Origin: Topomyia yanbarensis
Lineage: Eukaryota; Arthropoda; Insecta; Diptera; Culicidae
Length of the DNA stretch: 64,000 nucleotides
Reading direction: 5' to 3'
NCBI RefSeq assembly: GCF_030247195.1
Contig: NC_080671.1
Span: 432,946,539-433,010,538 of the forward strand
Below, in pieces: positions 14,314 through 61,700 of this stretch (position 1 is the stretch's first letter; each line of letters opens with the position of its first letter). The notes under the pieces are model-generated. The model saw nothing but the letters and a program-made list of their open reading frames with translations. It was not told the origin of the DNA and ran no database searches. The position numbers and the translations under genes are program-made.

Positions 14314-14364
<51 letters not shown>

Positions 14365-14739
14365 ATCTGTCTCTCTCCTATCGCATCTATCTAGCTATTT
14401 CTCTATGCATTTCTAAGTTGTGTGATAAGATCTTCTGCCAATCTGAAATATTTGTTAATTGTAATTGCGAAGGTTTGAGAAAACAAAACTATTTTTTGTC
14501 TGCTGCTACATCAACTCAATTTTAATTCAATTATATTCAAAGCCTGTATCTACACTATAATTAAGGAAATTCATGGCTATATCAGAAAAATATTTGGCTT
14601 AACTGGGTAATATGAAAGTTTGACGATGGAAATTTTCAAAAGAGACATTCCACGTGCGATATTTAAACTATTCGTATCTCTATTGAATTTTGAATGAAAT
14701 ATATACTCAAAGACTGAAAGCTGAAGCCAGGATTTCGAA

Positions 14740-15769: not shown

Positions 15770-17600
15770 TACAATCCGGTTTATTCATTTTCTTTATTCA
15801 AAAATGTGTTTGGCTTCAAATATATGACCATTTAATTTTAATTAATTATTTCATTCCGCATCTTTTTATTCGTTTTGTTCATCTGAGTTCATTTTACTTA
15901 TTTTATTCGTTTCATTCTTTGGTTTCACTCTGATCAGTTTATCCTTTTTGTGCATTTTAATCATATCATTCATTGTTTTCATTGTATGTATTTTATTAAT
16001 TTTTTCCAGTTTATTCATTTTGTTCAGTTTCTTCATTTTAATAATCTGACTACTTTTTCAGTTTTAATCATTTCATCCAAATAATTTATTTGATTCAATT
16101 TATTTCTTTATATTAATTTATAACCTTTTACTGCTGTTCAATTATTCATTTTAATCAATGCATTTAATTCTGCTCATTTTCTTCTTTTTATTCATTTTAT
16201 CACTTCAGCTCATTTTGTTTATTTGATTCGTTTGTTTTATTTATGCATTTCATTTATTTTTTACTTTATTCGTTTTGTTCATCCATTCTTTTTATTCATT
16301 TGATCCATTTCATTAATTTGATTCATTGTATTCACTGGATGAATTAAATCAATTTGATTCATTTAATTCATTTGATTCATGTGATTCATTTGATTCATTT
16401 GATTTATTTGATTCATTTGATTAATTTGATTCATTTGATTCATTGGATTCATTTGATTCACTTGATTCATTTTGTTGCCGCGCAAATGAGTTAATTATAC
16501 AATGTCAGCAGTGCATAAGAAATGCATCACTGCTACGCGTAGGGAAGGTTGATGTTGATCTTAAAATCCCGAAAATGAAATGAAAAGAACACAGAAAAAG
16601 GGATCACTGCCTATTTACCAACCTCCCGCGCCTAATATACATAAGCGTGCCATACGCAGTCCGATTAGCTAGCTTTGGTTTTTCCTTCTCACTTACTCTG
16701 CGGTTAGGATAGTAATAAAATCTTAGAAAGCGGTACAAATGTAACCGCATATTTTGTGAGCCCTTGTGGGACTGGACTAGGATTGAATAGCAGGAATCCG
16801 TATTGTGGTTAAATACGTCAGTCTTGAAGAGGCAGGGCCAAATATATAAGTAAACAAATAGGAATTGCGCCCTTCTAAGGCCATAGGAAATCTACACCGT
16901 ATCTCAGGAGAATAGGGAAAAACTTAAGAACTAAAAGGGACAAATTTTCCCGTAGCGATATATGAATCGCGCGGGCAACATGTAGCTTTAAGATAACTTT
17001 TGTAAATATTTTCTGAATAAATTAAGTTTCAAAGTTCTAAAACTCCAGACGTCCTTCTAAGAAAGAAAACCCAACCACGGAAGCAGGACCACAGCCCAAG
17101 GAACATTAGGAGAGATATAAAGTCCACGGCCTCGCTCTGGTAAGCAAAGTGTTGGGAAAACATTCCCGTTGTTTCACATTTGATTCATTTGATTCATTTG
17201 ATTTATTTGATTCATTTGATTGATTTAATTCATTTGATTCATTTGATTCATTTGATTCATTTGATTCATTTGATTTATCTGATTTATCCGATTCATTTTA
17301 TTCATATCTTTAATTTTATGCATTTCATGTTCAGTCATTCGTTTTATTTCATTCAATTTGTTAGTATGAGTCAATTTATTCTATTAATCTTATAACTATT
17401 TCTAAATATCTTAATTTTTATGTAATAACCTAATCTAATTTGATTCGTGTATTTGGATCAAAATTATAATGATTTCCATTACTTTTTCTACTCATTTTAT
17501 CAATTTAAAAACCTATTGTTTCATTTTTTGCTTTACTTTTTTATTTCGGTCGTTTTGTTGATTTGTATAATTTATTCAGTTTATTCGAGATTTTATTCGT
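15770..17600. repeat. ATTCATTTG 9-bp minisatellite, copy 1
   Basis: Imperfect 9-mers (ATTCATTTG and variants) are densest at 16,316-16,472 and 17,177-17,300 and decay outward into TTCATTTT-type sequence. The array is split by the solo LTR at 16,473-17,176. Frames reading FDSFDS or IHLIHL are artefacts of the 9-mer. Confidence 0.85.
16473..17176 (+). mobile_element. Solo LTR, copy 1 (704 bp)
   Basis: It begins TGTTGCCGCGC and ends CCCGTTGTTTCA, so it has TG...CA termini. It is flanked by the 5-bp direct repeat CATTT (16,468-16,472 and 17,177-17,181). An AATAAA (TGAATAAATTAAG) lies in its last quarter, as in an LTR polyadenylation region. There is no internal domain, which is consistent with LTR-LTR recombination. 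TGTTG ends are common in BEL/Pao elements, but the family is inferred. CATTT also occurs in the host 9-mer, which weakens the target-duplication argument somewhat. Confidence 0.7.
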
Positions 17601-19152
17601 GCAAGACTAGAAACTGTTTTCATCCCACCTCTAATTGGGTGCCTACTTCTCGTGAGTTCTGCAAACTAATCCAATAGTGAAATGTGTAAGAAATGTCTCA
17701 TCTCACTGCTAGGTGGATTAAATCGGTTTTTCCAAAAGGCTTAGGTTCTGTAAATGAAATTCTGTAGGAAATATTTTGACCGGTAAACATTTGGGGTGCG
17801 TAGTGATTGCAAATTATGCTTTTTAAACCCCAAGTCCAAGTCTTACTCAAGTCACTGCTAACTAATGTGCGTATTTTCATGAAAAAAATGGATGAATTTG
17901 CCGGCCGTTGTTCCGAAGCATTTCCTTACAGTAGCGTTAGCGGAGCACAAGATATCTCTGCAACCGATGAGCCGATCGATCAGATTTTTAACAGTTCTTT
18001 TAACAGTTCATTTTAATAGTTAGATCTTAAATGAAAGGGTCTGCAAACACAAATTAGTTCTGGAAATAGTGTTACTTTCTTAAAAAATCAATCACTGTTT
18101 GTGTTAAAAATTGTTTGTAGAGGTGCTTAACTCAAACGCTATATAAAATAAGAAATGTTTCTAGAGCATCTGCAGAAATATTTGGTCGGTTCATCGAATG
18201 TATACTTCGTATAATTTGTTTTACCGGAACTGCATTTGCATGAAATTTTGCATGCCCGGATATTTAAATTTTTGGATGTATAAAAAGTAATACAAAAATG
18301 AAAGGCCTAACATTGCCATTTGACACTATTATTTTTGATTTTCGATATGTTGTTTACTTTCTGAGATATGGGCGATTTTGTCAAAACACAGCAGGTTTTT
18401 TGCAAATAACTTTCGAACAATACAATATTGTCCCACAAACTGCACATAAATAGAAAGCTTGTAAAAATACCTTTCTAACAAGCTATAGATTGTCTAAATC
18501 CGTGCACGAGCGGCGGAGATATTAGACATTTTGTATTTTTAGTCCTCGCTTACCAATTTCTACTAATTAAAAATGAGATTGTTTCATACAGAGTATTGCT
18601 TTACTGGTGTTTTAGGGGCAAAACTAAACCGATTTTGAATATCGGGGTATGAAAACACATCTACGTGATTCAAGGAATTCGATGTTGAGAACATTTTGTG
18701 AATTACCTTTATAATAAAAGAACTATTTCTCAAAAATCAATATATAAGTTCACTTCAAAGACAAAATAATGCGTTGATAAAGAAACAGTGAGTTCTAGTA
18801 TTTATTCCTTGGATTAGGCATTGCGTTCAATCATGAGGTAATGTTGGATGGTATATCAATACACAGATCAACAAGTAATTCACCTAGTAGTGAGATAAAA
18901 GATTTCTAATATAATTATACTTGTGGCGTCACCGAAAGCAACTGCATGTTTGAAGCCCAAAAATCTAGCGAAAATTTAGCTCTTTTGCAAGATTTAGGTT
19001 ATACTGGTTATGGAGCAAAAATTACTACTTACATTATTTATGATAAGAATGTAAGAATCAATATATCATAATAATATACCTATAAAAATAATGTCACTGC
19101 ATTAACCATCATTTGCCATTCCTCACACGCCCCCCCCCCACCCATCTCTATC

Positions 19153-19197
<45 letters not shown>

Positions 19198-19572
19198 ATC
19201 TGTCTCTCTCCTATCGCATCTATCTAGCTATTTCTCTATGCATTTCTAAGTTGTGTGATAAGATCTTCTGCCAATCTGAAATATTTGTTAATTGTAATTG
19301 CGAAGGTTTGAGAAAACAAAACTATTTTTTGTCTGCTGCTACATCAACTCAATTTTAATTCAATTATATTCAAAGCCTGTATCTACACTATAATTAAGGA
19401 AATTCATGGCTATATCAGAAAAATATTTGGCTTAACTGGGTAATATGAAAGTTTGACGATGGAAATTTTCAAAAGAGACATTCCACGTGCGATATTTAAA
19501 CTATTCGTATCTCTATTGAATTTTGAATGAAATATATACTCAAAGACTGAAAGCTGAAGCCAGGATTTCGAA

Positions 19573-20028
19573 GACAAAATACATGAGAGGAAGAGGTTCT
19601 AGAGACGACAATGTGAACCTCCCACCCGAGTTCGGATTGACGGTGACGAAATCGAGATGGTCGAAGAATTCATGTATTTGGGCTCACTGGTAACCGACGA
19701 CAATGATAACAGCAGAGAAATTCAGAGACGGATCTTAGCGGGAAATCGTGCCTACGTTGGACTCCAGAGGACACTGTGGTCGAACAAAATTCGCCGCCGC
19801 ACGAACTTGATTATCTACAAGACGCTGATTAGATCGGTGGTCCTCTACGGCCACGAGACCTGGACTATGCTCGTGGATGACCAACGCCTTGGAGTTTTCG
19901 AACGAAAGGTGTTGCGTACCATCTATGGTGGCGTGCAGATGGAAGACGGAACGTTGCGCAGGCGAATGAACCATGAGTTGTATCAGCTGCACATTCGTTG
20001 TATTGGTACGAACTTTCATGAAAAATAA
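19573..20028 (+). pseudogene. RTE-type reverse transcriptase C-terminal fragment, copy 2
   Basis: Duplicate of the fragment at 14,740-15,195. The 123-codon plus-strand frame is identical at protein level, and the same upstream one-base loss is present. It is therefore a product of the segmental duplication, not an independent insertion. Confidence 0.85.
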
Positions 20029-20599
20029 TGGATCAAAGACCAAAAATATCCACAAATTAGATCCAGGAAAAGAAGTCCCCAAAGTACCCACTCTCGATGG
20101 GGGATATACTGAGTAGTTTGAACCATTTCTTTTTCACAATATTGGTCTGTATAGGACTTATTTATCCATATTTCCTGCACGAGAATTCCGAACGAAACAA
20201 TACAAACACGCTTTTATGCAATCGACATAGCCTAGACATTTCACACTATTTACTTCAATGCAAATAAAAACTTTGAAATATCTACCTGTCTCATTCACGA
20301 ATCGCATTCTCCCTCTGTCGTTCTCTGTTCAAGGGGCTTGAAAGCACATGTGACCTTGTCTCACTTTACTATATTCAATTGCGCGTTAAAATACTGGACC
20401 AGTAAATTCTGTTCTGCACATAAATCTTTTTTCGGGAATATGTGACCAAAAAGTAAACTTTGAATTCATCAAGTAAAGAAGCATGAAAACCAAAAAAAGA
20501 TGGAAGCCCTAGAAAGTCCATTGCATATTTATTAGCCTTTTCTCAGAAGATGGGATTTTCAAAAAAATTTCAAAACTTTCTGATGCAATGGTTTTCAAT

Positions 20600-22515
20600 C
20601 CGTACAATCCGGTTTATTCATTTTCTTTATTCAAAAATGTGTTTGGCTTCAAATATATGACCATTTAATTTTAATTAATTATTTCATTCCGCATCTTTTT
20701 ATTCGTTTTGTTCATCTGAGTTCATTTTACTTATTTTATTCGTTTCATTCTTTGGATTCACTCTGATCAGTTTATTCTTTTTGTGCATTTTACTCATATC
20801 ATTCATTGTTTTCATTGTATGTATTTTATTAATTTTTTCCAGTTTATTCATTTTGTTCAGTTTCTTCATTTTAATAATCTGACTACTTTTTCAGTTTTAA
20901 TCATTTCATCCAAATAATTTATTTGATTCAATTTATTTCTTTATATTAATTTATAACCTTTTACTGCTGTTCAATTATTCATTTTAATCAATGCATTTAA
21001 TTCTGCTCATTTTCTTCTTTTTATTCATTTTATCACTTCAGCTCATTTTGTTTATTTGATTCGTTTGTTTTATTTATGCATTTCATTTATTTTTTACTTT
21101 ATTCGTTTTGTTCATCCATTCTTTTTATTCATTTGATCCATTTCATTAATTTGATTCATTGTATTCACTGGATGAATTAAATCAATTTGATTCATTTAAT
21201 TCATTTAATTCATTTGATTCATGTGATTCATTTGATTCATTTGATTTATTTGATTCATTTGATTCATTTGATTCATTGGATTCATTTGATTCATTTGATT
21301 CATTTTGTTGCCGCGCAAATGAGTTAATTATACAATATCAGCAGTGCATAAGAAATGCATCACTGCTACGCGTAGGGAAGGTTGATGTTGATCTTAAAAT
21401 CCCGAAAATGAAATGAAAAGAACACAGAAAAAGGGATCACTGCCTATTTACCAACCTCCCGCGCCTAATATACATAAGCGTGCCATACGCAGTCCGATTA
21501 GCTAGCTTTGGTTTTTCCTTCTCACTTACTCTGCGGTTAGGATAGTAATAAAATCTTAGAAAGCGGTACAAATGTAACCGCATATTTTGTGAGCCCTTGT
21601 GGGACTGGACTAGGATTGAATAGCAGGAATCCGTATTGTGGTTAAATACGTCAGTTTTGAAGAGGCAGGGCCAAATATATAAGTAAACAAATAGGAATTG
21701 CGCCCTTCTAAGGCCATAGGAAATCTACACCGTATCTCAGGAGAATAGGGAAAAACTTAAGGACTAAAAGGGACAAATTTTCCCGTAGCGATATATGAAT
21801 CGCGCGGGCAACATGTAGCTTTAAGATAACTTTTGTAAATATTTTCTGAATAAATTAAGTTTCAAAGTTCTAAAACTCCAGACGTCCTTCTAAGAAAGAA
21901 AACCCAACCACGGAAGCAGGACCACAGCCCAAGGAACATTAGGAGAGATATAAAGTCCACGGCCTCGCTCTGGTAAGCAAAGTGTTGGGAAAACATTCCC
22001 GTTGTTTCACATTTGATTCATTTGATTCATTTGATTCATTTGATTCATTTGATTCATTTGAATCATTTGAATCATTTGAATCATTTGATTCATTTGAATC
22101 ATTTGATTCATTTGATTCATTTGATTCATTTGATTCATTTGATTTATTTGATTCATTTGATTGATTTAATTCATTTGATTCATTTGATTTATCTGATTTA
22201 TCCGATTCATTTTATTCATATCTTTAATTTTATGCATTTAATGTTCAGTCATTCGTTTTATTTCATTCAATTTGTTAGTATGAGTCAATTTATTCTATTA
22301 ATCTTATAACTATTTCTAAATATCTTAATTTTTATGTAATAACCTAATCTAATTTGATTCGTGTATTTGGATCAAAATTATAATGATTTCCATTACTTTT
22401 TCTACTCATTTTATCAATTTAAAAACCTATTGTTTCATTTTTTGCTTTACTTTTTTATTTCGGTCGTTTTGTTGATTTGTATAATTTATTCAGTTTATTC
22501 GAGATTTTATTCGTG
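20600..22515. repeat. ATTCATTTG minisatellite, copy 2 (expanded)
   Basis: As in copy 1, with dense parts at 21,140-21,305 and 22,010-22,205. The right part has expanded and contains a variant subset TTTGAATCA at about 22,058-22,100 that is absent in copy 1, showing array turnover after the duplication. Confidence 0.85.
21306..22009 (+). mobile_element. Solo LTR, copy 2 (704 bp)
   Basis: Same termini, length and CATTT flanks (21,301-21,305; 22,010-22,014) as the LTR at 16,473-17,176. Carried by the segmental duplication. Confidence 0.7.
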
Positions 22516-26682: not shown

Positions 26683-28745
26683 AAGGGCGAACACGAAATT
26701 ATTGCGACACATTCAACAGGGCATAACTTTTTTACCATTGGGTAAAAATCAACCAAATTTTGCACACTTTCTCATTGATGTGTATTGTTTACATGCTGTC
26801 AAACTCGAAGTCGTGTTTTTCGATTCAACGAAAATGGAGGTGAACCAACGCGAGTCGAGAGAACAAATTCTTTCCAAACACCTGGAATTTCCTGACCTGT
26901 CGCACCGGCAGTTGGGAAAAATGTTGAACATTCATCATTCAACCGTGTCCAGAGTGTTGAAGGGGTTCCAGGAGCGGTTGACGTTGGACCACGGCAAAGG
27001 AGCTGGAAGAAAACCGGGACCGGAGAACAAAAAGACGCAGGGAAAGGTGAAGCGGATGATTAAAGCAAATCCCAACGTCTCAAGCCGTGATTTGGCTAAA
27101 AAGATCGGCATGTCGCAGAGCTACGTCCAGAATGCAAGAAAGAGAGCTGGACTACATACATACAAGGTGCAGAACTTCCCAAACCGCGATGAGCGGCAAC
27201 AATCGACGGCTAAAACTCGGGCACGGAAGCTCTACGAGAAGATGCTGACAAAATATGGCTGCTGTGTAATGGACGACGAAACGTATATAAAAGCCGATTT
27301 TAAGCAAATTCCGGGGTTGGAGTTTTTCTCCGGCAAGATCAAGTTCTATGTGGACGACAAATTTAAGAAGAAGAAAATGTCGAAGTTCGCCTCCAAATAT
27401 CTCATTTGGCAGGCCATCTGCTCTTGCGGACTGAGGAGTGAGCCTTTCGTGACAAAGGTGCTCGAGAAGCGCTTTTTGCCGTTCTTGCAGCAGCACGACG
27501 AAGCTCCGCTATTTTGGCCAGATTTGGCATAATGCCACTATTCTAAATGTGTCCTGGAGTGGTACGAGGCCAATTCTGTCCATTTTGTTCCAAAGGACAT
27601 GAATCCGCCAATCTGTCCGGAGCTGTGCCCGGTGGAGCAGTACTGGGCAATGATGAAGCGGGAACTTCGGAAGAGCAAGAAGACAGTCAAAGACGAGAAG
27701 GACATGCTAAGAAAATGGGAAAAACTGAGAAACTGGTACCGGATGACACTGTAAAGACTTTGAAGGAGGGCATCAAGCGAAAATGCGTTCAATTTTACGC
27801 TCAAGGCTCCATCGATTACCTTTTCTTTTGATTTTTGAAGTAAATATATGTATAAAACTACCCTAAAATTTTGGTTTGATTTTAAACATTATAAGAAAAT
27901 TGGCATGACATTTTCGGTGTCACAATAAGAAAAAATTGGCAGCACTGCCGAACCGCTCGGACGTGTTTTTCTGTTCATGCAATATTTTCCAAAGTTTTCC
28001 AATAGTATATTGTGTGTTTGACGGAAAATCGAAGTCAATCATTCACATAGTAATTTCTTCTGTAGAGTTACGTGTTAATAGGTGTGAATAGCGTGGAAAT
28101 AGAGAGATTTTACGTAGTGATTATATCGTCACATTCTGATAACTTTTTAATGCATGAGCGTGAATCTAGCCGCCAAGGGTACACCAGCTCGTTTAGCGTA
28201 GCGCCATCTATACATGACTAGTTGATGCAACGATTTCACTGATGGTGGAGGAAAATTCATGCACCCTAATTAATTGAGAGCAGGTGAAATTGTTAAATGT
28301 TATTTTTTCAATGTTTATATATTTTATCTAAATAATTTTCTTATTGTAAATACGGGCTAAACAAGGTAAGTTACATCCATTTTGCACTGAAATATTGTTG
28401 AATAAGCTCCTCATAAATAACCTGCCCTACTAACACAAATTCCTATTCCTGAAACATCTATGAAAGTTGTATGGGTTCCCTGCACTTTTGTAAGTAGATG
28501 TTGAACTAACATTCCTTCCCTTCCTCGACGATTGTCAGGACGTGGCCAGGTGTACACTGTGATGCTTGTTCCACTATGAAGAAAAAGCGTTAATCCCAAA
28601 TGTTTTTTTTTCTTGCGACACGATATGGTGGATATCTTGGTAATTATCAGCTGATCATTGTACAGCCACCCACGATTTGTGCAATCGTATATGCTATGCT
28701 ATGCTATGACATGTTCGGTGTCGCAATAATTTCGTGTTCGCCCTT
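26683..28745 (+). mobile_element. ITmD37E mariner-like element, apparently interrupted or composite
   Basis: The left terminus AAGGGCGAACACGAAATTAT (26,683) is the exact inverse of the right terminus ending at 28,745 over about 28 bp, and TA dinucleotides flank both. The transposase gene sits at the left. A second, degenerate right-end-like sequence (GACATTTTCGGTGTCACAAT, 27,908-27,927) precedes about 790 bp of foreign sequence, before the good terminus. Either another element inserted near the right end, or two related ends lie side by side. The foreign part contains a GACGATTGTCAGGACGTGGC block near 28,527 also typical of dispersed repeats. Confidence 0.65.
26834..27831 (+). pseudogene. Mariner (D37E) transposase, broken
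   Basis: Starts MEVNQRESREQILSKHLEF. An N-terminal helix-turn-helix pair is visible (LSHRQLGKMLNIHHSTVSRV, then SSRDLAKKIGMSQSYVQ), with a basic GRKPGPENKK linker between. The catalytic residues are the first D in MDDETYI, the second D in LFWPDLA, and E in LCPVEQYW. Exactly 37 positions separate the second D and the E if the stop at 27,530-27,532 (after WPDLA) is counted, so this is the mosquito-type ITmD37E group. Other lesions are an internal deletion after SEPFVTK and a frameshift near 27,740 before the C-terminus (YAQGSIDYLFF). It cannot produce a full enzyme. Confidence 0.9.
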
Positions 28746-32479: not shown

Positions 32480-34200
32480 GAGCGAAACAATCAACATTCT
32501 CCCAGGTGCCAGTATTGCACTTTTTCCCTGAACCTGTCAACACACTCAAGGTCAAAAGAGTCGACAGTAAGCAGGACCCTCATGTATATCTACCCAAGGT
32601 AATTGATCTTTTTTTTCGAGAGTTGTCCTACTGGAGCTGTAGAGCTAGGTTCTCGGAAGAGCTCCCCGTCCGAATCACATATTACAATTTGCAGACGAGA
32701 CAGGCAATGTCGCCCACTAAAACACTGCATTAGGCCAATTGTAGCGGGCCGTGATTCTGAATGTGATATTCATTGTACGGTTCAGGTATGTGCGGGCGTA
32801 GGGACTCGCGATCGCGTGTATCATCGCGAAGGGCTCGAAGATTTGTACGTTAACGTGCTCGATCGCGTGTGTGTTTGTATGTCGCGTGTGCGTTTGCATG
32901 TCGCGTGCGCGTTTGTATGTCGCGTGTGCTAACGTGTATGAACTTCGCGTGTATACATTCTATTTCATGACCGTGTGCCTTTCGCATCTTCGCGTGTGTT
33001 CTAGAATGATCGCGCGCGGACCGTGAATCTGATACTTAATTTTTGATTTTTGGTGTACGGTTCAGATTTCAAAAGAAGGCGGGTTCTTACATATCATTAG
33101 AATTCCCATTCATGTCGCCGTAGAACGCGTGATCTAGTGGATATGAGCTTTATTTTTTTTTTTGATTGGTCCAACTGAATGTATGGACCTAAATTGCTAG
33201 AATGAATGCTAAAGATTTCCAGACGTGACCGATTCATGATCGTGCGCGTTTGCGGGTTCGCGTTTGAGACCGCGTTTGTAACGTCGTAAGCACTAAAACG
33301 TTCACACAATTGCCGGAGTGTTATCAAGTTTACGCGATCTCGGGCATAGGTGTGCGTAGATGATCGCGAAGGGCTTAAGCGTTCGTATGTTGACGTATTT
33401 GTTGCGTGTTCTCGCGCGTATGTGACTTCGCGTGTATAAATTCGATTTTGAAACCCTGCGGCCATTCATATATTCGCGGACCGTCATTCTGATCTTTAGC
33501 ATTCGGTGTACGGATCACATTCTGACAGGGAGAGAGTTACCCCATACCACTAGAGTTTCCGGTCATGTCGCCATGGAACGTTTTGTCTAGTGGATATGGG
33601 AGTTATTGTTCAATTTTATTATTTTTTTTATTAATTAACAAGGACCTAGATTGTTGGTACCGAGGATAGAGACTTCCGGACGATCCCGATTCATGATGGC
33701 ACGAGCGCGGGAGTTTGTAGGTTGACGCTTGAGATCGTGTTGCTAAGTTTATGAGTGCTGAGATTTTCACCTTATCACCGGGGTGTAATCACGTTTGCGA
33801 GTTCGTGGGCGTAGGTTGCTTGGAAAATCGCGAGGGGCTCTAACGTTTGTGCGCTGACGTGATTTTGTAACGTGTGTTCTTGAATGGTCGCGCGAACCGT
33901 GAGTCTGATATTAAATTTTCGGTGCGCGGTTAGAATTCTAGTAGAGAGTGGGATCGTTTATATCGATAGGGTTCCCGGTCATGTCGCCATGAGACGTGTT
34001 GTCTAATAGGTATGAGCGTATTTTCTTAATTGGTCCAGCTGAAGGCATGGACCTAGGCTTCTAGGATCAAGGATAGACTTCCGGACGTGATCGATACGTA
34101 ACAGCGCGCGGGGGCTTTTTTATAGGTTCATGCTTGAGACCGCGTTTGAGAATGTGTGAGTGTTAAGACGTTCACTATCACCATCTTTGCTGACCCAGCT
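32480..34200. repeat. CpG-rich tandem repeat, module B (about 3 units)
   Basis: A leader with GCAATGTCGCCCACTAAAAC and GCGGGCCGTGATTCTGAATG (32,700-32,790) is followed by units of about 450 and 416 bp. Unit starts can be counted at the CATGTCGCC motif (33,113, 33,563, 33,979). Recurring blocks are GATCGCGAAGGGCTC, TTCGCGTGTATAAATTC, GATCGCGCGCGGACCGTGA, TTTTCGGTGTACGGTT and TTTCCGGACGTGACCGATTC. No meaningful open frame. Confidence 0.85.
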
Positions 34201-34904: not shown

Positions 34905-36530
34905 CACTACGATTGCAGACGAGACAGGCAATGTCGCCCACTAAAACACTGCTTAAGGCCAATTGCAGCGGGCCGTGATTCTGAATGTGATATTCATTGT
35001 ACGGTTCAGATATGTGTAGGAGTGGGGATTTCGCGAGCGCGTGTATCATCACGAAGGAGTCGAGCATTTGTACGTCAATGTGTTCGATCACGTGTGCGTA
35101 TGTATGTCGCGTGTGCTAACGCCATTTTAGGTTCTATTTTATATTAGCGTGGTCTTGGATAATCGCGCACGGGCCGTGAATCTGATACTTCATTTTCGGT
35201 GTACGGTTTAGATGCTAGAAGAAAGTGAGATCTTCCATATCACCAGAGTTCTAGGTCATGTCGCCATGGAAGGTGTTGTCTAGTGGATATGAGCTTTATT
35301 TTTTGATTAGTCGAATTTTTTCGAACACCTCTTTTCGGTTTACAGAAATCTCTTTTGGAAAAATCTCTAACCCTGTGTGCGGGGTTGGGAATCGAACGCA
35401 GGTGAGCTGCGTACAAGGCAATCGATTTACCAACTACGCTATGCCCGTCCCCTAGTCCAACTGAATGTATGGACTTAGGTTGCTAGGGCGGAGGGTAATG
35501 ATTTCCGGACGTGACCGATTCATGATCGCGCTAGTGCGGGAGATTGTAGGTTCACGTTTGAAACCGCATTTGAATGTTTATAAGTGCTGAGACGTTCATA
35601 TTATCACCAGGATGTTATCATGTCTGCGAAAGCGCGGGTGTAGGTTGTGTGGATGATCGCGAGGGGCTCAAGCATTTGTATGTTTGTTTGTCGCGTGTAT
35701 GTGACTTCGTGTGTATAAATTCGATTTTTATGTCGCCATGGAACGTGTAGTTTGGTGGATATGAGCATCATCTTTTTGATTGGTCCACCTGAAGGCATTA
35801 GACTTATGCTACTAGGGCCGAGAATAGGAGTTTCCGGACGAAACCGATCCATGATCGCGCGAACACGGGCATTTAGAATTTCACTCTTGAGACCGCGTTT
35901 GTGAATTTATAAGTGCTAAACAGTTCAATTGCTAAACGGTTGGGTTATCCCGTTCGCGAGATCGTGGGCGTTGGTGTGCGTGGATGATCGCGAAGGATTC
36001 GAACGTTTGTATGTTGATGTTTTTGTCGCGTGTGTTAGTGTGTATATCATTCGCATGTTTACGTGTTCTTGGATGATCGCGCGAGGACTGTGAATATACT
36101 TAATTTTTGGTGCATGGTTCAGATGCTAGAAGTAGGTTGGCCCCGTTCCAGGTAATGTCGTCATGGAACGCGTTGTACATTTCTTTTTCTATTGTTACAA
36201 TTGAAGGCATGAGTTTGGGGTGCTATGATCACGGACGCGCTCAAATGATTGCGCGAGCGGTTGGTTGATGCTTGAGACCGCGTTAGTAATGTTTAGGTGC
36301 CAAAATATTCACTAATTACCGGGGTGTTTGAATGTTGGCGAGATCACGGGCGTTCTCGTTTGTGATCAGGTTTGTGTTATCGCGAAGGCTACGTTTGTAT
36401 GTTTGGAATGAGAGAGATTGTGAGTGTAATTTATTTTGTTAGTGAGTGTTAGCATGGAACCAATTTAAAATATGGCAATCAAAGAATTTGGCCCTAAATC
36501 CACATTGTACATTATTAAATTTGTAAATTT
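34905..36530. repeat. CpG-rich tandem repeat, module C
   Basis: Same leader (GCAATGTCGCCCACTAAAAC at 34,929) and unit blocks as module B, with CATGTCGCCATGG at about 35,257 and TGTCGCCATGG at 35,730, and further degenerate units to about 36,420. One unit is interrupted by a SINE at 35,313-35,452. Trailing AAATCCACATTGTACATTAT marks the module end. Confidence 0.8.
35313..35452 (-). mobile_element. tRNA-derived SINE, minus strand
   Basis: The reverse complement starts GGGGACGGGCATAGCGTAGT. It contains a perfect A-box match (TAGCGTAGTTGG) and a B-box (CGTTCGATTCC), spaced as in a tRNA, followed by an AACCCCGCACACAGGG tail part. TAGTC flanks both sides (35,308-35,312 and 35,453-35,457). It interrupts a CpG-rich repeat unit whose uninterrupted form is seen elsewhere, giving an empty-site comparison. 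Not a functional tRNA gene. Confidence 0.85.
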
Positions 36531-39192: not shown

Positions 39193-39219
39193 GGGGGGGG
39201 GGGGGGGGGGGGGGGGGGG
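39193..39219. repeat. 27-base G/C homopolymer beside the SBF-like start codon
   Basis: The plus strand shows G x 27. On the gene's sense strand this is C27 ending 4 nt before the ATG. Its exact length in the genome is uncertain because homopolymers of this size are often miscounted. Confidence 0.95.
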
Positions 39220-47235: not shown

Positions 47236-47974
47236 TTACTTACTATATAATTCGGAAATCTTAAAATCGATTCACGATAGCAAAATTAAAACTTACGGGT
47301 ATCAATCATCACTTTTTTTGCACTTGCTCAATCAATTACTACTAATTCTACAGACACAAAACCATGACCAAACTCAAACATATAGTGGCTTAAATATGAA
47401 CCTGTCGTTAAATTTTCCAACTACGTTTCTGAAATTCAGTGAATCATTTTGAATAGTTTTTTTTTATTGAAAACCACATCTTCGCAATAAAGATGTTCTG
47501 ATATATTATGATATGTTCACAAAATCAATAAATTTCTGCAACCACTTTGATCCTTTTATCCATACATCGTCAGAACATTGACGAGCAAGTTACTGCTTTC
47601 TGAAAAACTTAGCCACATTCTAAACTACACTTTTATTTGTTTTTAAATTGTAGGTTTTCACAATTTTAGTAAACCGCGATGTGTATGAGCGAAAAAGCAA
47701 AAAAAAAGACTTTCCATACACATTTCCATTCAAACTTAAAACGTGATGAGCGAAAATTGGGAAAAAAAATTAATCGCCCCCAAAATTTGCAGTCTTTTGA
47801 AACCACAAAATGAACGTAAAAAGCACTGTGATCGGTCATTAGGATTATTTTTATTATAAAACCACGAGCAAGCCTACTGGTCGGGTCTGATTGTATTGAA
47901 AACGAACTTATATGTTAATTTATTTTAAAGCTTGTCTAAGATATGCATTTGTTTTGAATGAATTATTAGGTAAA
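47236..47974. other. Upstream flank of the hAT transposase
   Basis: AT-rich, non-coding. I could not identify a hAT terminal inverted repeat or 8-bp target duplication here. Confidence 0.4.
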
Positions 47975-49983
47975 ATGAATAAGTTGGTAGTGAAGGAGCG
48001 TTTTTTCACATACAACAGGGAAGAAAATGTATATGAATGTACAGTAGATGGCTGTAAGAGCAAGTTAAAGGGTCCTGAGAGCAGTTTAAAAAGACATTTG
48101 TCAAATCTACATCCAACGTTAGCGTCGCAGATCCGTATTCAAGGCTATAAAAGAAAATCCGAGTCCAGTCTTGAAGAGGGAATCAAGACTAAAAAGTGTA
48201 AAACATTTACAGTAAATGTTGATCCAAATGATTTCTTTTGTGGACTCATCGAAATGGTTGCAATCAATTCGATTTCCTTCAATTTTTTCGACAGTCCGGC
48301 CTTTCAAAAAACAGCTGGTGTACTTGCCAAACCACTCGGAATCTCTATTAATGCTGACGGTATGGCGTCGTCTGTTACGGAGGTAGCCAAATGTATTCGA
48401 GGCCTCATTGCCAACGAGCTGAAATAGAAAATGTTTTGCTTGAAGTTCGATGGAGCCGCGCGACACAATAGAAAAATTTTGGGTATAAATGCACAATATT
48501 TGAACAACGGAAAACTTATTATTAGAACACTATCTATGGAGGATATGACAATACGTCAAACAGGCGAAAACTTAAAAGCACGAATCGATCAAGTTCTTCA
48601 GAAATACAATGTGGATATAATGAACGTTTACTCTGCGACGACAGATAATGGGAGAAACATGTTGAAATGCACAGAAAGCCTTCGAATGCAACAAAATAAA
48701 GAGCTGACTATGAATTTGATGGAATCTCTCGAGGCGGTAAATGATTCGGATCAAAATGACGATGAATATACTTTTGATGAATGGGATCAACAAGAAATTG
48801 AGAAGGACGATAGTGTGGATGACATGCTCAATTCATTGGAGAATTTGTTTCACAACGGCGATGAAGGATGTGTTGAGGCTATAAAATGCGGAGCACATAC
48901 GTTCAACCTGATTGTAAAAGATGCATTGCGTGTTGAAAAAGACGATTCTCTAAAAATGATAAGAAAAGTTGTCAAAATCTCTAAAAGGATTGAATATCGC
49001 ACGTTCTTTGAACTGGCCAAAATACCTTTGGCGAAAATTGATGTGGAAACAAGGTGGAGTTCGGCTTGGGAAATGATACAAAGCGTGTACACATACCAAT
49101 CGTTTTACAATGATATTGGCAATAAATGCAATGATCTGAAGCTAACTGACGAAAATTGGAAATACATGGGTGATTTCATTGCTGCGTTTGAGTCAATCTT
49201 CAGTGCCATCAAGTCTTTTCAGTACAACAATTTAGTGATGGGAGATGTATTGAAGATTATAAAAATGTGCCAATTTAAGATTGAAAAACTTCCCCGCGAG
49301 AACCGGTTCGTCCCAGACCTTCTGAAAGCATTCGACAATCGGGTGCAATATTTGTTTGAAAACAACGCTTTTCGGGCCGCTATGATCTTTGATCAGCGAT
49401 GGTGTTTCCTCGATTCACCCTTTTTTTCTAAAGAAGATAAGCTTCTTGGTATAGTAAGTAATTTGAAAGAAATATATTTTCAGCTCGTTACAGAATTCTT
49501 CATTCACAGGACCACTTGCTTAAAGTTTCCAGTTTGCTTAAAACGATTAAAAAGACAAATGAGCCACTGTTACCGGTACAAGATGCTTCGCTTGAGCATC
49601 AAAATGATGATTTTGAAGCAATGTTGGCTGAATCATGTAGAAATGCTACGACATCCATTGAAAGGAATCAGATGGATCTTAAGTTAAAATTGATTCATTT
49701 GGCGAAAACTAAAACGCGACTTCCGGTATCTACTGATATTATCAAATATTGGGAGGCAAAAAAATTCGAAGATGACGAGTTATACGAACTTGCGTCTGTC
49801 GCTTTGTCTTGTCCAGCGACGCAAGTATCAGTTGAACGATGCTTTTCGGCAGTAAAACTGCTACTGGAGCAACATCGCTTAAGAATGTCCTCGAGTCGGC
49901 TGGATGATCTGATGATGATACGTTTCAACCAAGATCTTCTTCCAGCTGCAATAGTAAAAGTTTGTGGAAAATCCATGGATTAG
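47975..49983 (+). pseudogene. hAT-superfamily transposase, nearly complete but interrupted
   Basis: The likely start is the ATG at 47,975 (MNKLVVKERF). An N-terminal BED-like zinc finger follows (YECTVDGCKSKLKG...LKRHLSNLHP). A single TAG at 48,425-48,427 interrupts an otherwise continuous frame, which resumes at once in the same frame (KMFCLKFDGAARHNRK). hAT core motifs are YSATTDNGRNML (catalytic D), KCGAHTFNLIVKDAL, and KIDVETRWSSAWEMI (second D/RW). After KEDKLLGIVSNLKEI the frame shifts by one near 49,450-49,515. The C-terminal dimerisation region follows (ELASVALSCPATQVSVERCF, LRMSSSRLDDLMMIRFNQDL). About 670 residues in total, normal for the family. Two lesions only, so it decayed fairly recently or could be a domesticated or recoded gene, which I consider less likely. 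Confidence 0.9.
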
Positions 49984-52792: not shown

Positions 52793-55700
52793 GTAAGTTT
52801 GAAGATTCAAAGATGATTTTTACTTTAATCTTGTTTTTTTTTTTTTAATTTCAGTACGATGACGAGAGCAGTAACGATTACTTCAAAAAGATACCACAAG
52901 TGAGAGCAGCAAGAGCCTTTGAGGAGTCTACTGCAAACAAAGTAGAATCAGCGGTAGAACAACAGAGTTCAGTATGCTTTACTGGAAGTCCAATGAAAAC
53001 CATCAAAACCATTCGAAAAGCTAATGTTCCGAACGAAGAGAAGCCTACGATCGAAAACATTATCACCAAACCCGGACCGGACGGGTTAATGGAGACAGTC
53101 ATTCGGGTGAAGCGAAACTTGAAAACCGTTAAACAGCGGCACGTTTGTAAGCTGTGCAACCGTTCGTACAAATACAAACATGCGCTGGAAACTCATCTTC
53201 GGCGGCATCGTGGTGATAAACCGTACAAATGTACCGACTGTGAGAAGGCTTTTGTGGTGCCGTTCGAACTGCGGCGACACATGCGGACGCATACGGGTGA
53301 GTACTGGTGGTAATCGGTAATAGCGGCGGCTGTTTTTGTCTCTTTGGTTAAATGATTTTATGCGTTTTGTTTGCTATTACAGGTGCCAAACCGTACAAGT
53401 GCAAGTACTGTGAGCGACAGTTTTCGGATTTTGGTAGTAAAATCAAACACGAACGAACGCACACAGGAGAGAGGTTTGTGTTTTGTCTTTATTCTTTACA
53501 AGTAGTGGAGATGTTAGTGGAATGCTTTATACGTAAGTTATCTCAATAATCTTGCAAGGTTTTTCAGTGGTATGGGTATTTGATTGTTAATATGTCATGT
53601 GTTAAGTCAATAAGGCCCCGGTTTATTAAAATCACCGAGGACAAACGCTACATGAATTGCGTTAGGCTGTGAGAAAGCGTTATCCACAGAACCCAGTTTT
53701 GCATGATATTGCAGTCAAGTTGAAAAGCGTTCAGGAAGAATGCAGACTACAGAAAGTAGTTCTACACAGAAGTAGTAATACTGTTGCTTCTACTTTGGTC
53801 CGAGCGGTAAACGGTTTATTAATCGACGAAAAGCTGCATTAATTGTACGCTTGCATCAAGCCATGTTTCTGTGAAAACACGGATATCATTGTCACCGTCA
53901 ACAGCAGCCAATAAATTTTTGTCCTTTGTCGTTTAACGTTCTGGTGGTACATCTGTAAACCATCAGTATTGTATACCACTGTTACCGAGATCAAATATCC
54001 TAAAGAAATCTCGGATTGGCCGTCTGGGAGCAGAAGGCGGAGTTAATGGAAAAGGAGTTGTCGTTGGCCAAGAAGTCCTTGGAAATAAAGCAAACAGTGG
54101 CACCACCAAAAGTGAAGGAGACTTATGAGGGGAAAGATAAACCCCGGAGAACGGAAACCGTGTCCCTATCTACGTTGAAGAGGTCGAGAGCTTCACCAGG
54201 TGATGCGAGACCAGCAGGCCCCAAGAAACACAAGAAGGCTCCCGGCACCGCGGTACGCGTAGCGAAAGAACAACGAAGCAGCTACTAACGTGGGTAAAAA
54301 CACCAAAATAAAAAGTCGTGGGCAGCACAAAACGGAAGGCAAACAACAAGGATAAGTCAGAAAAGTGAAAGTTCTTCAAGGGACGAAGCAAAGGTCAAGC
54401 ACTCATAGTCAAAGCTAACGATGGCTGGTACAAGAAAGTACTGCGCGCAATGCAGATAAACCCGGTACCGAAGGAGCTGCGACGGTACTCAAGCAGCCAC
54501 ACCGGAGAGATGATCCTCGAATTGGAAAAGGATCCGATGTCAAACAGCCCTACTTATAGAAAGCTCACCGAGAAAGTGATGGGCGAAACAAAGCACTAAA
54601 ATCCGGGAAAATCAAAGTTGGCTGGTCGGTATATCCACTGAATGTCTCTCAGCGACAAGTGTGCTTCAAGTGTCAAGAGTTAGGCCACCTGGCGCGAAAC
54701 TGCAGTGGACCTGACGGGAGCAAATTATGCAGAAGGTGCGGGGAAAAAAGCCACAAGGCTAAAGACTACCGACAGGCTCCGAGATGTCTGATCTGTGCAA
54801 ACCAAGGAGATAACCATCACGTTACAGGAGGCCCACGATGTCCGGCCTTCAAACAGGCAACTGCAATGAACTCACTGTGGAGGTAACGCAAGTCAACCTT
54901 AATCACTGCGACAAAGCACAACACTTGTTGTGGCAGCCTGTAGCGGAGTCTACATGTGATGGAGCTATCATCTCGGAGCCATACCGTATCCCGGCCAACG
55001 ATGGAAACTGGATGTCAGATAACGCAAAATCAGCGGCAATTTGGTCGACGGGAAGATATCCATTTCAGAAAATATCCATTTCGATTCATAGACATAACTG
55101 ACAAAAGAACTTATCGATCGAAGACCAGTCATTATGGCCGGCGATTTTAAGACTTGGGTAGTAGAATGGGGCAGCAGCTTCACCAACTCAAGGGAGAGTA
55201 GTCTACTCGAGGCCTTTGCAACGCTGAACGTAGATGTTGCAAACGATGGTGCAATCTGTACCTACCGCCGGGAAAGTCGAGAATCAGTTATTGACGTTAC
55301 CTTCTGCAGCCCCGGGCTGGCAGGAAGTTTGACCTGAAGAGTGCGTGAGGAGTACACCCACAGCGACCACCAAGTGATTCGGTACACTCTCAAAAGCAAT
55401 AGACAGTCTGAAGCGCGTGACCCAATCAAATGAGCGGTGGTGGAAATCAATTAAGTTCGTCAAGAAAGTCTTCGTTGAAGCGTTGAGACGTGAGTGCAAA
55501 AACCTGTACTTTTGTGCAAATGAAGTGATAACGGCATTAGCAAGAGCGTGCGATGCAACCATGTCAGGAGAGGGTAAACCGAGGTACAGTTGCCACTGAG
55601 CACGGAGGAAAATGCAGATAGCCCACAACGTCGCAGAAAGAGCAGCTCTAAGACCAGTATATAAGGCAGTCGCATTTAACAAGGAAATCAAGCTGAGTAA

Positions 55701-58700
55701 GAAAGCCTGTCTAGAGGAGCTTTGCCGCAAAGCGAATACAAATCTGTGGGGCGACGCCTATGGAGTTACAATGGCGAAGATAAGAGAACCGGCAGTATCA
55801 CCAGATAGGTACCCGGAGAGGATGAGAGTAATCGTAGAAGCGCTATTCCCATAGCTTGAGCCGGAACGGGTCGCCCACGCGGAGTTCAATGTGATTACGA
55901 AGAAGCTCGGGTAACCAACAAGGAGCTGATAGTGGTGGCAAAAGCCTTGAGAACCAAGAAGGCCCCGGGACCAGATGGTATCTTCAATCCCAACGATGAT
56001 AAGTTCCCCGGTATCTGGAAGCGACAAAAGCTGGTGTCGTTGCTGAAGCCAGGCAAGCCCTCTGCAGATCCTTCAGCATATAGACCGATATGCCTGTTGG
56101 ATACAGCCGGCAAGGTGCTTGAAAGAGTAGTCATTAACAGGCTTACAGTTCGGCTTCCCGAAATCTAGATCCATTGTGGAAAATATGGAGGGTGCACAGA
56201 AGCAAAAGAGAAGAGAAAACTGTTGCTGCGGAGTGGTTGCGCTGGACGTAAAACGCCTTCAATAGTGTTAGTTGGGCTGCAATCGCCGATTTGCTGTACA
56301 GATTGAGAGTTCCCGAACACCTCTGCAGGATTCTGAGATAACCTTCTGAACCGGCCACTGATCTATGAAAATGACGGCGGAAATAGAAGGGTAACCTTAA
56401 CAGAAGGCGTTCCACACGGTTTCATGCTAGGTCCAAATCTTTGGGGACAACGGAGTGCTAAATCTGCCCTTTTATGCAATTCTGACGTTAGCGCCAATAG
56501 GAATATTTTTCAGGAAACCAATTTTTGTGTTTCGTGATGTTTTCAAAAGCACGAATAATGTTCCAACTATCTGTTCTGTACAAAATGTGTACAATCCATC
56601 GTAGATAATAGCCAATTGCTTAAATTTTCACTTTTTTGCAAAAACCTTGTAAATTTTAGCTAACGTCACTTTTGCAAAAAAATAGCGATTTCATTTCACT
56701 GTTTTTATGCAATTCTGACGTATGTATACAAACCAATAGTAGCGGGTAAAACGTGTCGTATATTATCAACCGTTTTAATTGAATTATCTGCAAATGATTT
56801 TGAGTTCATTCAAGTTTCCGAGGCTATGTGGTGGTCTGGTCAAATGGTCGGTTTTGGATCTATACGGATGTTCCGTGGGTTATGTCCGAGGGCCATTGAG
56901 TACATTTTCATTAATTTTCCAAAGTTTAGCTGCAAGTCAGGCATTATTATAAAATGTATTGTATATTATATCCTACATTTGAACACTATGACTACATTTT
57001 GGTATCATGTAGGCCTTTTTCAAGCAACGTGGAAGCGGTTCTGGGCTGAAAGTCCTAGTGAATACGGAATGCGCTACCCATGTTTGTGAAACATTTATAC
57101 TTGAAGATACCTGCCATGCGGCACATTAACGATGATCTGCAGTCATGTAAAATCATTCGGAATCACGGAGAAACTTTACAACCCATTCGGTGATTCCGGA
57201 TTCCTTTTCAACGGATGAATTTTTAAGTGAATATTCCTGTCACGCGGCACATCAAGGTGCACCAGCTCGGTTTTCTACGAACAATGCTATCACATGTAAA
57301 GTCATCCGGGATGAAACGTTTTTGTTAAACATTTCTGTCATGCGACATATCAAATAATATCAACCCTATAATTTATGGACAATGCAAATTCAATGTCAAA
57401 TAGGGATACTTTATTAACAATTCTGGAATATGGCAGTTCGGACCAAACAATTCTAGTAATTATTTCTGTCATGCGGTACATCAAATTCTGTGATCTGTGA
57501 TAAATACAGTCATATTTGAAGACATTTGGATACAGTGTTCCACTTAACGACTGGTTCCGGTAATTCCGGTTTCCCGCTTCTTTGGTAATTTTGTAGTGAA
57601 TATTCCTGTTACACGGCTCATCAAAATACATCATATAGGTTGTCTATAAACTATTCATGCACATTTGAAGTCTTCCTAGTATACGGTTATTCTGGAGTTG
57701 GTCTTAATCTGATTGCATTTTTAGTAGATCAAGCGTGTCGAATAACAGGTGTTTTCAGGTACAAACGTTTCACAGGTATGGGTTACTCATTTTGAATCCA
57801 CAAAGTCTCTCAGATGGTTTCCAAATTAGTTTAGAGCTTTTATATATACAATTTATTAATGTTCATGTTATAATAATACCAGTTTTCATGCTATAGTTTG
57901 AAAAATTAATGAAACTGGCTTAACATTGCCTCGGACTGACCCCATGAAATTTTCGTATAAATTTGGATATGCCGGATATGTGAACAGTTTTACTCACGGT
58001 TTATGAGACTTGAATAAATTCTATTTTATTTGCAGGTATTTTGGTTGGAATTGGTTTTGAAATTAGTTGGTTGGGTACCAATTACGCACTAAAATGATGA
58101 AATATAGAACAACAGCGGTCAAGGTTTTGAACAAAAGTTTTCACCAACATACATTCGTACATTATCGTGGTATGAAAAATCCATGTTGAAAAAGACTAAG
58201 CTTGCTGCTTTACAGAAGCATTCCAACTTTCACAGGAAACTTCTTTATAAAATATAAAAGGTTAAAAAAAATTATCGCACTAAAAAACTAATTTGAATAC
58301 CACCCTAGCCTAATTACAACACCACCCTAGCCATTAACATCACAAAATGGGGCTTATCTAGCTCCCAACATTACTTATGATACAACAGCTTAGGAATAAA
58401 TTGTTTTGCGTTGTTAAATATACCTTCAATACTATATTGCACCGGTACGTCACTTCGGTAAAAAAAATGGCGTCTACGTCACTTTGTTTTTCTCGTTTTA
58501 AAAGGCCATTTTGCATAATTTTTTAAAGACAATTACACTGAAAGACGTGGATTTTTATGGAGAACTCAGCAATACGAAAAAAATGAAATTTGACCAAAGT
58601 GGCGCTTACGTCACTTTTGCATACAAGGGCAGTAAAGTTGAGCCTCCCCAGGGTGGTGAAGATTGTCGGTTTTGTAGACGACGAGGTGCTCGTAGTGATC

Positions 58701-61700
58701 GGCGTATCCATAGAGAAAGTAGAAGTACTCGCCACGGAGGCGGTAGATACTGTTGAAGACTGGAAGCTCGAAAGAAAGCTGGCGTTAGTTCACCACAAAA
58801 CCGAGATTGTTTTGATAAGCAACCGAAAGGTAGTAGCACAGGAACAGGCGAGAATTTTGGTCGTAGAGTATCATCAACTTAAAGCGGGAAGTTAGACAAC
58901 TGGGAGTGATCTCGGCATTATCTCGGATCATGTTTAAAAAAGTGGTGCTCAGCAGCAGTAAAAAGAAGTCTCCATATCACATGCATGGGTGATGGCACTG
59001 CAGACGGAGAGGAACACATCTCGGCTGAACAGCACGTTCGGGATGATAGCCAAGGGGTGCGTCATAGGATCCGAAAATAAGTGTGCGTCATAAAGTCCGG
59101 GCCCCAAAGATGCATATCCGTTTTCGGATGTTATGACGTACCTGTTGTGCGTCACAATGTCCCGGACGTTATAACGCACTGTCGTTTTCGGATTTTATGT
59201 CGCAATGGACATGTTGGACAGTGTGACGCTCTCCTAGTATCGGATATTATGACGCACAGGTGCTGCGTCATAATGTCCCAGGTCATAACGTCTCAAAACA
59301 GTGAGCGTCATAACGTCCGGGACATTGTGAGGTACGAGAGTGAAATGCGTTATAACATCCGAAGTTATTCTTGTGTCACATGTCCGGGATCTTATGACGC
59401 ACACTGATATTGAGATGTTATGACGCAGAGGTATTGCGTCATAAAGTCCGGGATAATATGACACAATCATTGTTTCGGATATTTTGACGCACACGTACTG
59501 CGTCACAACGTCCCAAGTCATGCAGCATTGGGACATTATGACGCAGTTCTTATGCGTCATAATATCCGAAACTATACCTGCGTCACAGTGTCCACGAAAT
59601 TATCTGCGACATAAGATCCGAAAACCAACGTTCGTCATAACGTCCGGAACATTGTAACACACAAAGTATGCGTCATAAGATCCGAAAAGAAATGTACGTT
59701 GTAAAGTCCAGAAACTTGTGACGCACACCCGTTTCCGGATATTATGACGCAGCCTGGTGCGTCATATTGTCCCAGATATTATGACGCGTTCTTCTTTGGG
59801 ACCTTATGACTTGTGACGCTATGACGCAGTATCTGTGCGTAAAAATTCCCAAAAAAATGCGTGGGTAATAGAATGACAGGAAAAAAAATTACCCCTATCG
59901 GCCTACCCCTGAGTCGATTCCTAGTCCTACCAGGAGTACTTGCTCCAAATTTACAGCAAATCGGACAAGTCTAGCTACTGGACCAACGTGCCTGAAGTTT
60001 GTATGGGATTTTTCGACAATTTACATGGAGAAAACGCACTAACTCGCATTTTCGCCGCTAGGTGGCTCTGTATGCATCGTATTATCACTGTAAGTAAAAA
60101 TAAGAAAGATAATTTGATTGCCTACAACTTTGTCGAAGACTGCTAGTGAATCCGGCTTTGTTAAAAGAAGTTATTAAACTTTCAAAGAAGTTATGTCTGA
60201 GTCCGTTTTGCATGGCGATGATCATTCTACGAGGCAAAACATGGAACAATCGCCTTTCTACTTCACTTACAGTTGGAAAGTGTTGCCCGATTCAAAGACG
60301 GCTCACGGCAACCAATAGCACACACTGTAATCACAGTAGCTGAACGCGGGAAACGAACACACGGTGAACACGCGATACAAGTCCGGGACGGGACGCGAGA
60401 ATTCACAGTTCGCGTGGCATTACATTAAGGCCATAAGAGGCTGTAATCAGCAACTGAGCACCTAAAAACCCTCACTAGAGGTAAGGTTTTTGCACTTATT
60501 CGTGGTAATGCCTTGCTCATGGGCAGTAAATGCTTTTCCAGGGTTTTGTTGGTCGATCGCTTTGGTTCAAGTTCGACTGGGTTGGAATCAGTGTCCACGA
60601 TTAGACTCGGGAATCCGACGAGCGACCGCTAGGAGCGGTGGAAGCACGTGGCTTGGACGGAGAAACACAACGTTCGGAAGTTTGAACGGCGTGATCGTCA
60701 GGGAGTGAACTAACTCGCCGTCGCAGATGCATGGCCATCGGAATTCGTGAGTCGTAGCACATAGTGTGAGGGTGCACCTCGAAAAGTGAAAAGAAGAGAG
60801 GGAAGGATGGAGAAGAGAGAGGTGGAAAGGGAAGGAGACAAAGACTACATGTATTGTGAACTCGACTGTAGTCCTTTACTCCGAAGATCGTTACATCATT
60901 ACACCAAGTGGAGCGGCATGAAAAAGGCATCTGTTAACGACATGGCAGCGCCGAAGTTTTTCACGAGGATATTTCAAATGTGTCTCGTTTTCTCGTACTT
61001 TTCCAATCTACTCCCTATGTCAGAGATGTTGGGAGATCTCTATCCAGCTCCCGGAATGGCTGACACTTGATTTATCCCAGTGAACCGTTATTGAGATTGA
61101 CGAATACAGCACATCGTGATTTGTCCCATAAATCTTTTAAATTTAATAAAATGCAGTAGCAGCATTTTTTTCCTATATCTGTAGTATTTGTATTCGAAGT
61201 GTTCGGATGTTTAAAAATATTTCTCAGTATGACTATTGTACTCGTATGTTAGACAAGTCCGTCTTTTTTCCATTTCAGGCCCTACGTTTGTGAGATTTGC
61301 GAGAAAAGTTTCACCTATTCTCATGTACTCAACAGTCACATGTTGATTCACACTGGAGTCAAGAAATATTCGTAAGTTCAATAGAATATTTACATTTTTC
61401 GATAAAAAAGTCCATTTCTTCTTATTTTCCTCCAGATGCCCAGACTGCGGCAAGCGTTTCGCGAAATCACACCACTTGAAGGCACACATGAACACTCACG
61501 TTCGATCAACTAGCAATAACAATAACAACAACAACAGCATCAACAAAAGCAACTTCAGGAAGGAAAACAGCATCGACAGCATCGGCATCGGTAATCCTAT
61601 TTCGACCATCATTTCCGACGCGGACGGTGATGCCGATGATGACGATGACGACGACAACGGCGACGCCGCGAGGGCACTGGCCCAATTTGATCGCCACCAC

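Follow-up and report, generated by a model that had tools for sequence, protein, structure and literature searches.

A palindromic intronic array in Topomyia yanbarensis as the probable internal fragment of a dispersed foldback-type DNA transposon, most likely Mutator-like

The window analysed here—the whole 64,000-nucleotide stretch of the Topomyia yanbarensis genome to which all coordinates refer—contains a dense array of short palindromes within an intron of a zinc-finger gene. We conclude that this array very probably comes from the interior of a foldback-type DNA transposon that is non-autonomous, most likely a Mutator-like element (MULE), and has spread through the T. yanbarensis genome. 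It belongs with the foldback-type transposons by the features tested: dispersed copies, inverted ends made up of internal repeats and a target-site duplication. The MULEs are the likely home of this candidate, as suggested by a 9-bp duplication, mosquito precedent and architecture. Two points are unusual: the phased lattice of half-sites that runs in both directions along the whole body of the element, and the way in which divergence between the arms of the element compares with divergence between its copies.

An earlier note on the window had drawn attention to the array, and our counts bear out its existence and its place. The ten-base word TGCGTCATAA occurs exactly at 10 sites within the array’s 801 bp and at none across the rest of the window; when one mismatch is allowed, there are 25 sites in those 801 bp and three in the other 63.2 kb. 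When the array was shuffled with its dinucleotides preserved (n = 300), 0.13 sites at ≤1 mismatch arose on average and two at most. With ≤2 mismatches, 29 sites fall within the 801 bp and 33 elsewhere in the window, and the whole-window count is not above chance (62 found, 67.7 expected) because the array makes up only 1.2% of the window. The depth of homology among 20 loci places the limits of the array at ~59051–59870. Tandem Repeats Finder, at a score of 50, did not report the array; a protein search with its open frame returned no relative at E 10 or better and a search of bacterial and archaeal genomes for the array pattern found none.

A single motif, the 15-bp half-site TGCGTCATAANRTCC, underlies this dense lattice, and TGCGTCATAA represents its first ten bases. 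Half-sites are built into two kinds of unit, which alternate along the array: unit A, a 31-bp palindrome (TGCGTCATAANGTCCSGGACNTTATGACGCA) with two half-sites head to head around the core GTCCSGGAC, and unit B, a 20-bp asymmetric sequence with one half-site followed by GAAAA, which has the tail ATCCGAAAA and is present in both orientations. The two central sequences that the earlier note had picked out are real, the first being the unit A core and the second the unit B tail. The same holds for its description of palindromes nested in direct repeats, and for its view that simple tandem repetition or an ordinary satellite would not account for the array, given units in both orientations and relatives with transposon-like ends. 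Parsed by hand, the units run in the order A, 6 bp, B tail, B head, 7 bp, A, with a period of 64 bp. In the same parse, the spacers show no consensus in sequence but keep their length (6–7 bp in 20 of 24 gaps), a feature that had been overlooked, as had the mirror axis described below. Representative units are as follows:

59148–59178, no strand assigned: unit A, a 31-bp palindrome with half-sites TGCGTCATAANGTCC head to head
59669–59688, plus strand: unit B, half-site TGCGTCATAANATCC followed by GAAAA
59185–59204, minus strand: unit B in the opposite orientation, with a variant in common with its mirror partner at 59605–59624
59212–59230, no strand assigned: shortened unit A (A'), 19 instead of 31 bp, with its counterpart at 59579–59597 in the other arm

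Taken as a whole, the array fragment forms one large imperfect palindrome with its axis at 59404.5, and its two arms are 74.3% complementary when compared ungapped, with the next best of 701 registers reaching 47%:

59055–59280, plus strand: left arm of an internal inverted duplication, its units running B+ A B- A B- A' B- A*
59529–59754, minus strand: right arm of the same duplication, recognised by complementarity with the left arm

Both arms show the same unit order, and an A unit shortened by 12 bp and the variant half-site TGCGACATAA recur in them at mirrored positions, so we regard them as true inverted duplicates. Predicted folding was far stronger than in shuffled sequences (z −19.9 for DNA and z −23.8 for RNA, 20 shuffles each), in line with the cruciform or hairpin folding proposed in the earlier note. 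The predicted RNA fold, at −393.5 kcal/mol, pairs 76% of the bases, has 21 bp as its longest perfect stem and follows the 59404.5 axis in 136 of 163 long-range pairs, so that, according to the model, the array would fold mainly as one long hairpin rather than as many small ones.

The domains of the exons and splice sites read by eye (GTGAGT at 53297, CAG ending at 61278, with the C2H2 exons joined in frame) support the view that the array lies within a gene intron, where it is bordered by other repeats:

53297–61278, plus strand: intron of a ZAD-C2H2 zinc-finger gene, enclosing the array, the LINE parts and the right-hand repeat
54010–56444, plus strand: dead LINE, part 1, endonuclease and start of the reverse transcriptase (Pfam zf-CCHC and Exo_endo_phos_2; tblastn with P0121–P0124)
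58605–59051, plus strand: dead LINE, part 2, a further part of the reverse transcriptase, reaching the array (tblastn)
59051–59870, plus strand: internal fragment of the foldback element, matching positions 338–1175 of the 1,639-bp copy L009
59881–60169, plus strand: unrelated dispersed repeat to the right of the array fragment, with another copy at 1599–1856 (77.5% over 289 columns)

The dead LINE, which we take to belong to an R1-like clade, is related to proteins P0121–P0124, one of which is recorded as a protein of Aedes albopictus. Its reading frame runs to 59051, where the array starts, and the remaining ~190 residues of P0121 were not found within the window. Apart from LINE domains and the margin of the zinc-finger exon that follows, Pfam searches of the intron in six frames gave no match. 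Three other accounts of how the array came to lie here were tried. As the 3' tail of the LINE it was rejected, the array starting mid-frame in the reverse transcriptase; as part of the 59881–60169 repeat it found no support, the only other copy seen (1599–1856) lying without an array beside it; and a shared-word comparison of the junctions revealed no target duplication of the kind left by a simple insertion into the LINE, the rest of which is missing. The 59881–60169 repeat was not found in viral contigs.

Several other features of the window were recorded along the way. A DNA transposon of ~2.2 kb, with 33-bp inverted ends that match at 28 of 33 positions, is nested in the dead LINE at 56464–58632, and the LINE resumes beyond its far side. 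Frames for a hAT-type transposase occupy 47900–49983 (hAT dimerisation domain, E 2.5e-11, in 49462–49980), and the frame at 26684–27532, presumably Tc1/mariner-like, gave helix-turn-helix matches of the kind usual for transposases. A diverged repeat in which words like CGCGTGTG abound occurs at 1869–2722, 32775–33680 and 35455–36061. The segments 13454–17393 and 18296–22233 form a direct duplication of ~3.95 kb at 98% identity, which reflects either a recent tandem duplication or an effect of assembly, and an unusual run of 27 G at 39193–39219 is a possible weak spot in the sequencing. At the right end of the window lies a TMTC4 gene; a protein recorded under T. yanbarensis matches it at 99% identity across 94% of the query.

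When the genome was searched, dispersed copies with common ends emerged, some of them with 9-bp target-site duplications. That search gave 447 candidate regions, and the 40 that were scored yielded 256 matches, spacers included. Listed pieces other than the window itself were 65–96% identical and, among the matches listed, two others span the whole query on the same strand, at 84% and 86% identity. We took 38 loci for comparison (L009–L046), which are not all independent, as L027 and L028, like L020 and L022, are segmental copies and L017 holds two copies. The better-defined relatives are elements of 1.1–2.2 kb. Window positions 59057–59870 align with L009 at 85.1% over 838 columns; since the alignment covers only 338–1175 of that copy, we consider the window copy to be an internal fragment, about half of an element, with both ends gone. 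Common homology in L027 and L028 begins at the same unit boundary as the window’s 59051 (CAAGGGGTGCGTC).

Many of the first 20 loci have common ends at which homology stops, GGCACCGTGTCATAACGTCCGA on the left and, as its reverse complement, TCGGACGTTATGACACGGTGCC on the right, so that the element runs from GGCACC to GGTGCC (short form GGCACCGTGTCATAA). Under a strict rule for ends, 11 of the 38 loci have the left end, 17 the right end and five both (L009, L010, L015, L021 and L037); under a looser rule, 19 of the 38 have some admissible pair of ends, with 33 pairs in total. A 9-bp target-site duplication matching at 8/9 positions or better was found in five of the 38 loci: L021 (GCTTCCATA) and L025 (TTTCAGTGT) match in full, L010, L017 and L037 at 8/9. 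L011 reaches 7/9. When left ends were paired with right ends in 20,000 random control draws (same-locus draws being skipped, so that fewer were scored), none reached 8/9. Duplication lengths of 7, 8, 10 or 11 bp do not fit among the rows listed for L010, L017, L021 and part of L025. Three of the five loci with both strict ends carry the duplication; it is absent from L009 (0/9), L015 (5/9, with a 7-base match in its place) and L018 (3/9). The ends of L021 (1–83 and 1503–1585) are 84% complementary, with further inverted matches inside, and L009 aligns with its own reverse complement over 1–1639 at 63%. These figures bear on the TIR length of more than 100 bp that goes with MULEs, the L021 match spanning 83 bp and the L009 match the whole copy. 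The window copy has neither element end nor target duplication. We had also considered the arms within 59055–59754 as the transposon’s own terminal repeats and dropped the idea, the fragment being internal and the real ends being GGCACC...GGTGCC.

Whole elements carry the same lattice. In L009 the half-site is found throughout, at 62 sites with ≤2 mismatches, and six copies (the five with duplications together with L009) hold 43–62 half-sites each, or 34–39 per kb. In these six copies the sites keep preferred distances: a step of 26 bp separates 86 of 143 same-strand neighbours, one of 21 bp 59 of 87 head-to-head pairs and one of 16–17 bp 69 of 81 back-to-back pairs. Several other loci include site-poor stretches between arrays. 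In two such interiors, L018 read in six frames and L020 in three, no Pfam domain was found at E 0.1, and hence no transposase.

Comparison of units with spacers provides a view of when the half-sites were constrained. Between the two window arms, unit positions match at 149 of 178 (unit B 73/80, unit A 76/98) and spacer positions at 19 of 48, a contrast with a Fisher p of 5e-9 that is the best of 226 circular shifts; the spacer figure itself is slightly above chance (p 0.02). Set against L009–L028 (20 loci, each aligned once and including segmental copies of one another), the window copy shows an identity of 82% in matching spacers, 86% in A units and 91% in B units. The element thus holds two clocks: inverted arms, in which sites were kept and spacers drifted, and dispersed copies, in which spacers are nearly as much in common as sites. 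As read from these alignments, the spacers would have drifted almost completely between the arms before dispersal, with the half-sites held meanwhile, and units and spacers would have decayed at similar rates after it. Constraint may not have ended entirely with dispersal, because units exceed spacers in 18 of the 20 between-copy comparisons. Such a contrast between arms and copies is expected if selection acted on binding sites before dispersal, and we infer that the half-sites were under selection during the active life of the element, most simply as transposase-binding sites.

Whether the element is a MULE depends on the enzyme that moved it. It is conceivable, if on balance doubtful, that the same mobile element relied on a transposase of another superfamily (Merlin, P/Galileo or hAT) and that its foldback shape evolved independently. 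Merlin elements also make duplications of 8–9 bp, and the window includes a hAT remnant at 47900–49983; against this, hAT and P elements make 8-bp duplications. The foldback shape does not reveal the transposase, as the published accounts of Galileo as a P-type element illustrate (PMC3169594, PMC3573991), but the duplication here is 9 bp instead of the 7 bp given for Galileo (PMC3573991), with 9 bp fitting and 7 bp not in the rows listed for L010, L017, L021 and L025, and the known mosquito elements nearest in design, as described in one survey, are MULEs (PMC5225508). We judge it unlikely that we are dealing with a satellite-like array that grew from transposon ends and today spreads through duplication, not through transposition. 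The report on Tetris indicates that foldback ends can seed satellites (PMC4079207), some of our loci are the segmental copies named above and the window copy lacks ends; however, many loci have common inverted ends, five carry the 9-bp duplication at 8/9 or better and no long tandem array was seen in the loci examined.

Other readings concern a role for the array where it now lies or a viral source. The strong predicted RNA fold, with its energy, pairing and 21-bp stem as given above, would suit an intronic long hairpin that, once transcribed, might be a source of small RNAs or double-stranded RNA; we think this quite unlikely, as the arms are only 74% complementary and a search of 58000–61300 found no match in Rfam, and such RNAs would in any case arise secondarily from the element and leave the account of its origin untouched. 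The earlier note had also raised the prospect of a binding cluster for a bZIP protein, which would make the array a host regulatory cluster of many TGACG-type half-sites acting on the zinc-finger gene. TGACG is indeed present in most half-sites and the array is intronic, but this proposal now seems very improbable: the array is dispersed genome-wide with transposon-like ends and 9-bp duplications, rather than confined to one regulated locus; it abuts a dead LINE; and its matching spacers are common to other loci as well. An integrated viral replication or enhancer repeat similar to the homologous regions (hrs) of baculoviruses, which are described as ~30-bp imperfect palindromes that bind a viral activator and so resemble unit A in size (PMC6669502), is in our view barely credible, with no match in exact-match scans of viral contigs for three array patterns, no viral domain in six frames of the intron and the target duplications of a transposon in place.

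The preferred reading, a foldback-type transposon of probable MULE affinity, finds its nearest precedents in Aedes aegypti. The account of MULEs in that mosquito gives 8–9 bp duplications for all 14 families (Muta1–Muta14) and 9–15 bp subterminal tandem repeats for 10 of 12 families with long TIRs, and describes Muta1, with its terminal palindromic motif, as a type 2 foldback element with nine 12-bp repeats, 3–4 bp spacers and 145-bp ends (PMC5225508). The 9-bp duplication seen here falls within the 8–10 bp range given for MULEs (PMC5225508). Like the Muta elements as described there, ours is a mosquito DNA transposon with repeat-filled ends, a duplication in the 8–9 bp range and many non-autonomous derivatives; unlike them, and comparing by description only, it uses a 15-bp half-site in both orientations, at steps of 26, 21 and 16–17 bp, that fills the element. 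By its published description, the Tm1 Mutator/Foldback element of root-knot nematodes has 9-bp duplications and composite ends with a redundant motif of ~14 bp (PMC3169594). It resembles our element in its duplications, motif repetition, variable length and mostly non-autonomous copies, and differs in sequence, in the transposase-coding copy that is known for Tm1 and not here and in that the Tm1 motif is a TIR repeat; the same paper emphasises that the transposases of foldback-like elements belong to different classes (PMC3169594).

Comparable architecture is reported in other foldback elements. Galileo is credited with several transposase-binding sites in its long repetitive ends, in a paper that calls the repeats of Foldback and Phantom untested for such sites (PMC3688188). 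As far as the accounts go, Galileo shares with our element internally repetitive TIRs, TIR-only copies and chimeric copies with diverged TIRs (PMC3688188, PMC3573991), and differs in its 7-bp duplications, few binding sites per TIR and P-type transposase. Tetris of Drosophila virilis is likewise described as an apparently non-autonomous foldback element whose TIRs contain internal tandem repeats, although its repeats are ~220 bp long and form kilobase satellite-like arrays (PMC4079207). The baculovirus hrs are similar as arrays of ~30-bp imperfect palindromes (PMC6669502), with protein binding shown for them and inferred here, and differ in being viral and without transposon ends or target duplications. 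The ATon elements of mosquitoes, which are reported to use AT target sites, do not fit (PMC3422177).

The earlier note had also weighed whether the unit might be the repeat of an already described transposon. That it belongs to a transposon is largely upheld; as to a previous description, our evidence consists of searches with exact strings. Either of two 10-base array strings occurs in 31 papers of the open-licence literature, of which the 20 listed have unrelated-looking titles; the end strings retrieved no paper from it, and the family may already be catalogued in Repbase or Dfam.

By analogy, the element would work as other foldback elements do. A transposase with its gene elsewhere would bind the half-site through its DNA-binding domain, with unit A holding a dimer and unit B one subunit, and the fixed steps of 26, 21 and 16–17 bp would keep neighbouring subunits in register. 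Such an element would amount to a multivalent landing platform, on which a short recognition motif would gain sufficient specificity. The window copy would have lost both its ends through later rearrangement. We tentatively put forward a bolder possibility, which we hold to be less than probable: that the whole body, and not the ends alone, is a selected lattice of ~40–60 phased two-way half-sites, a protein-assembly platform on which spacing would count for as much as sequence in holding a multimeric transposase and which, present in hundreds of genome regions, could also titrate transposase or a DNA-binding protein of the host.

Why foldback transposons have long repetitive ends is an unsettled question, on which the contrast between arms and copies bears, and the preferred steps of 26, 21 and 16–17 bp offer a concrete geometry that is testable by binding assay. 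For the zinc-finger gene of T. yanbarensis, a transposon origin would account for this striking structure in an intron with no need to assume a role in regulating the host gene.
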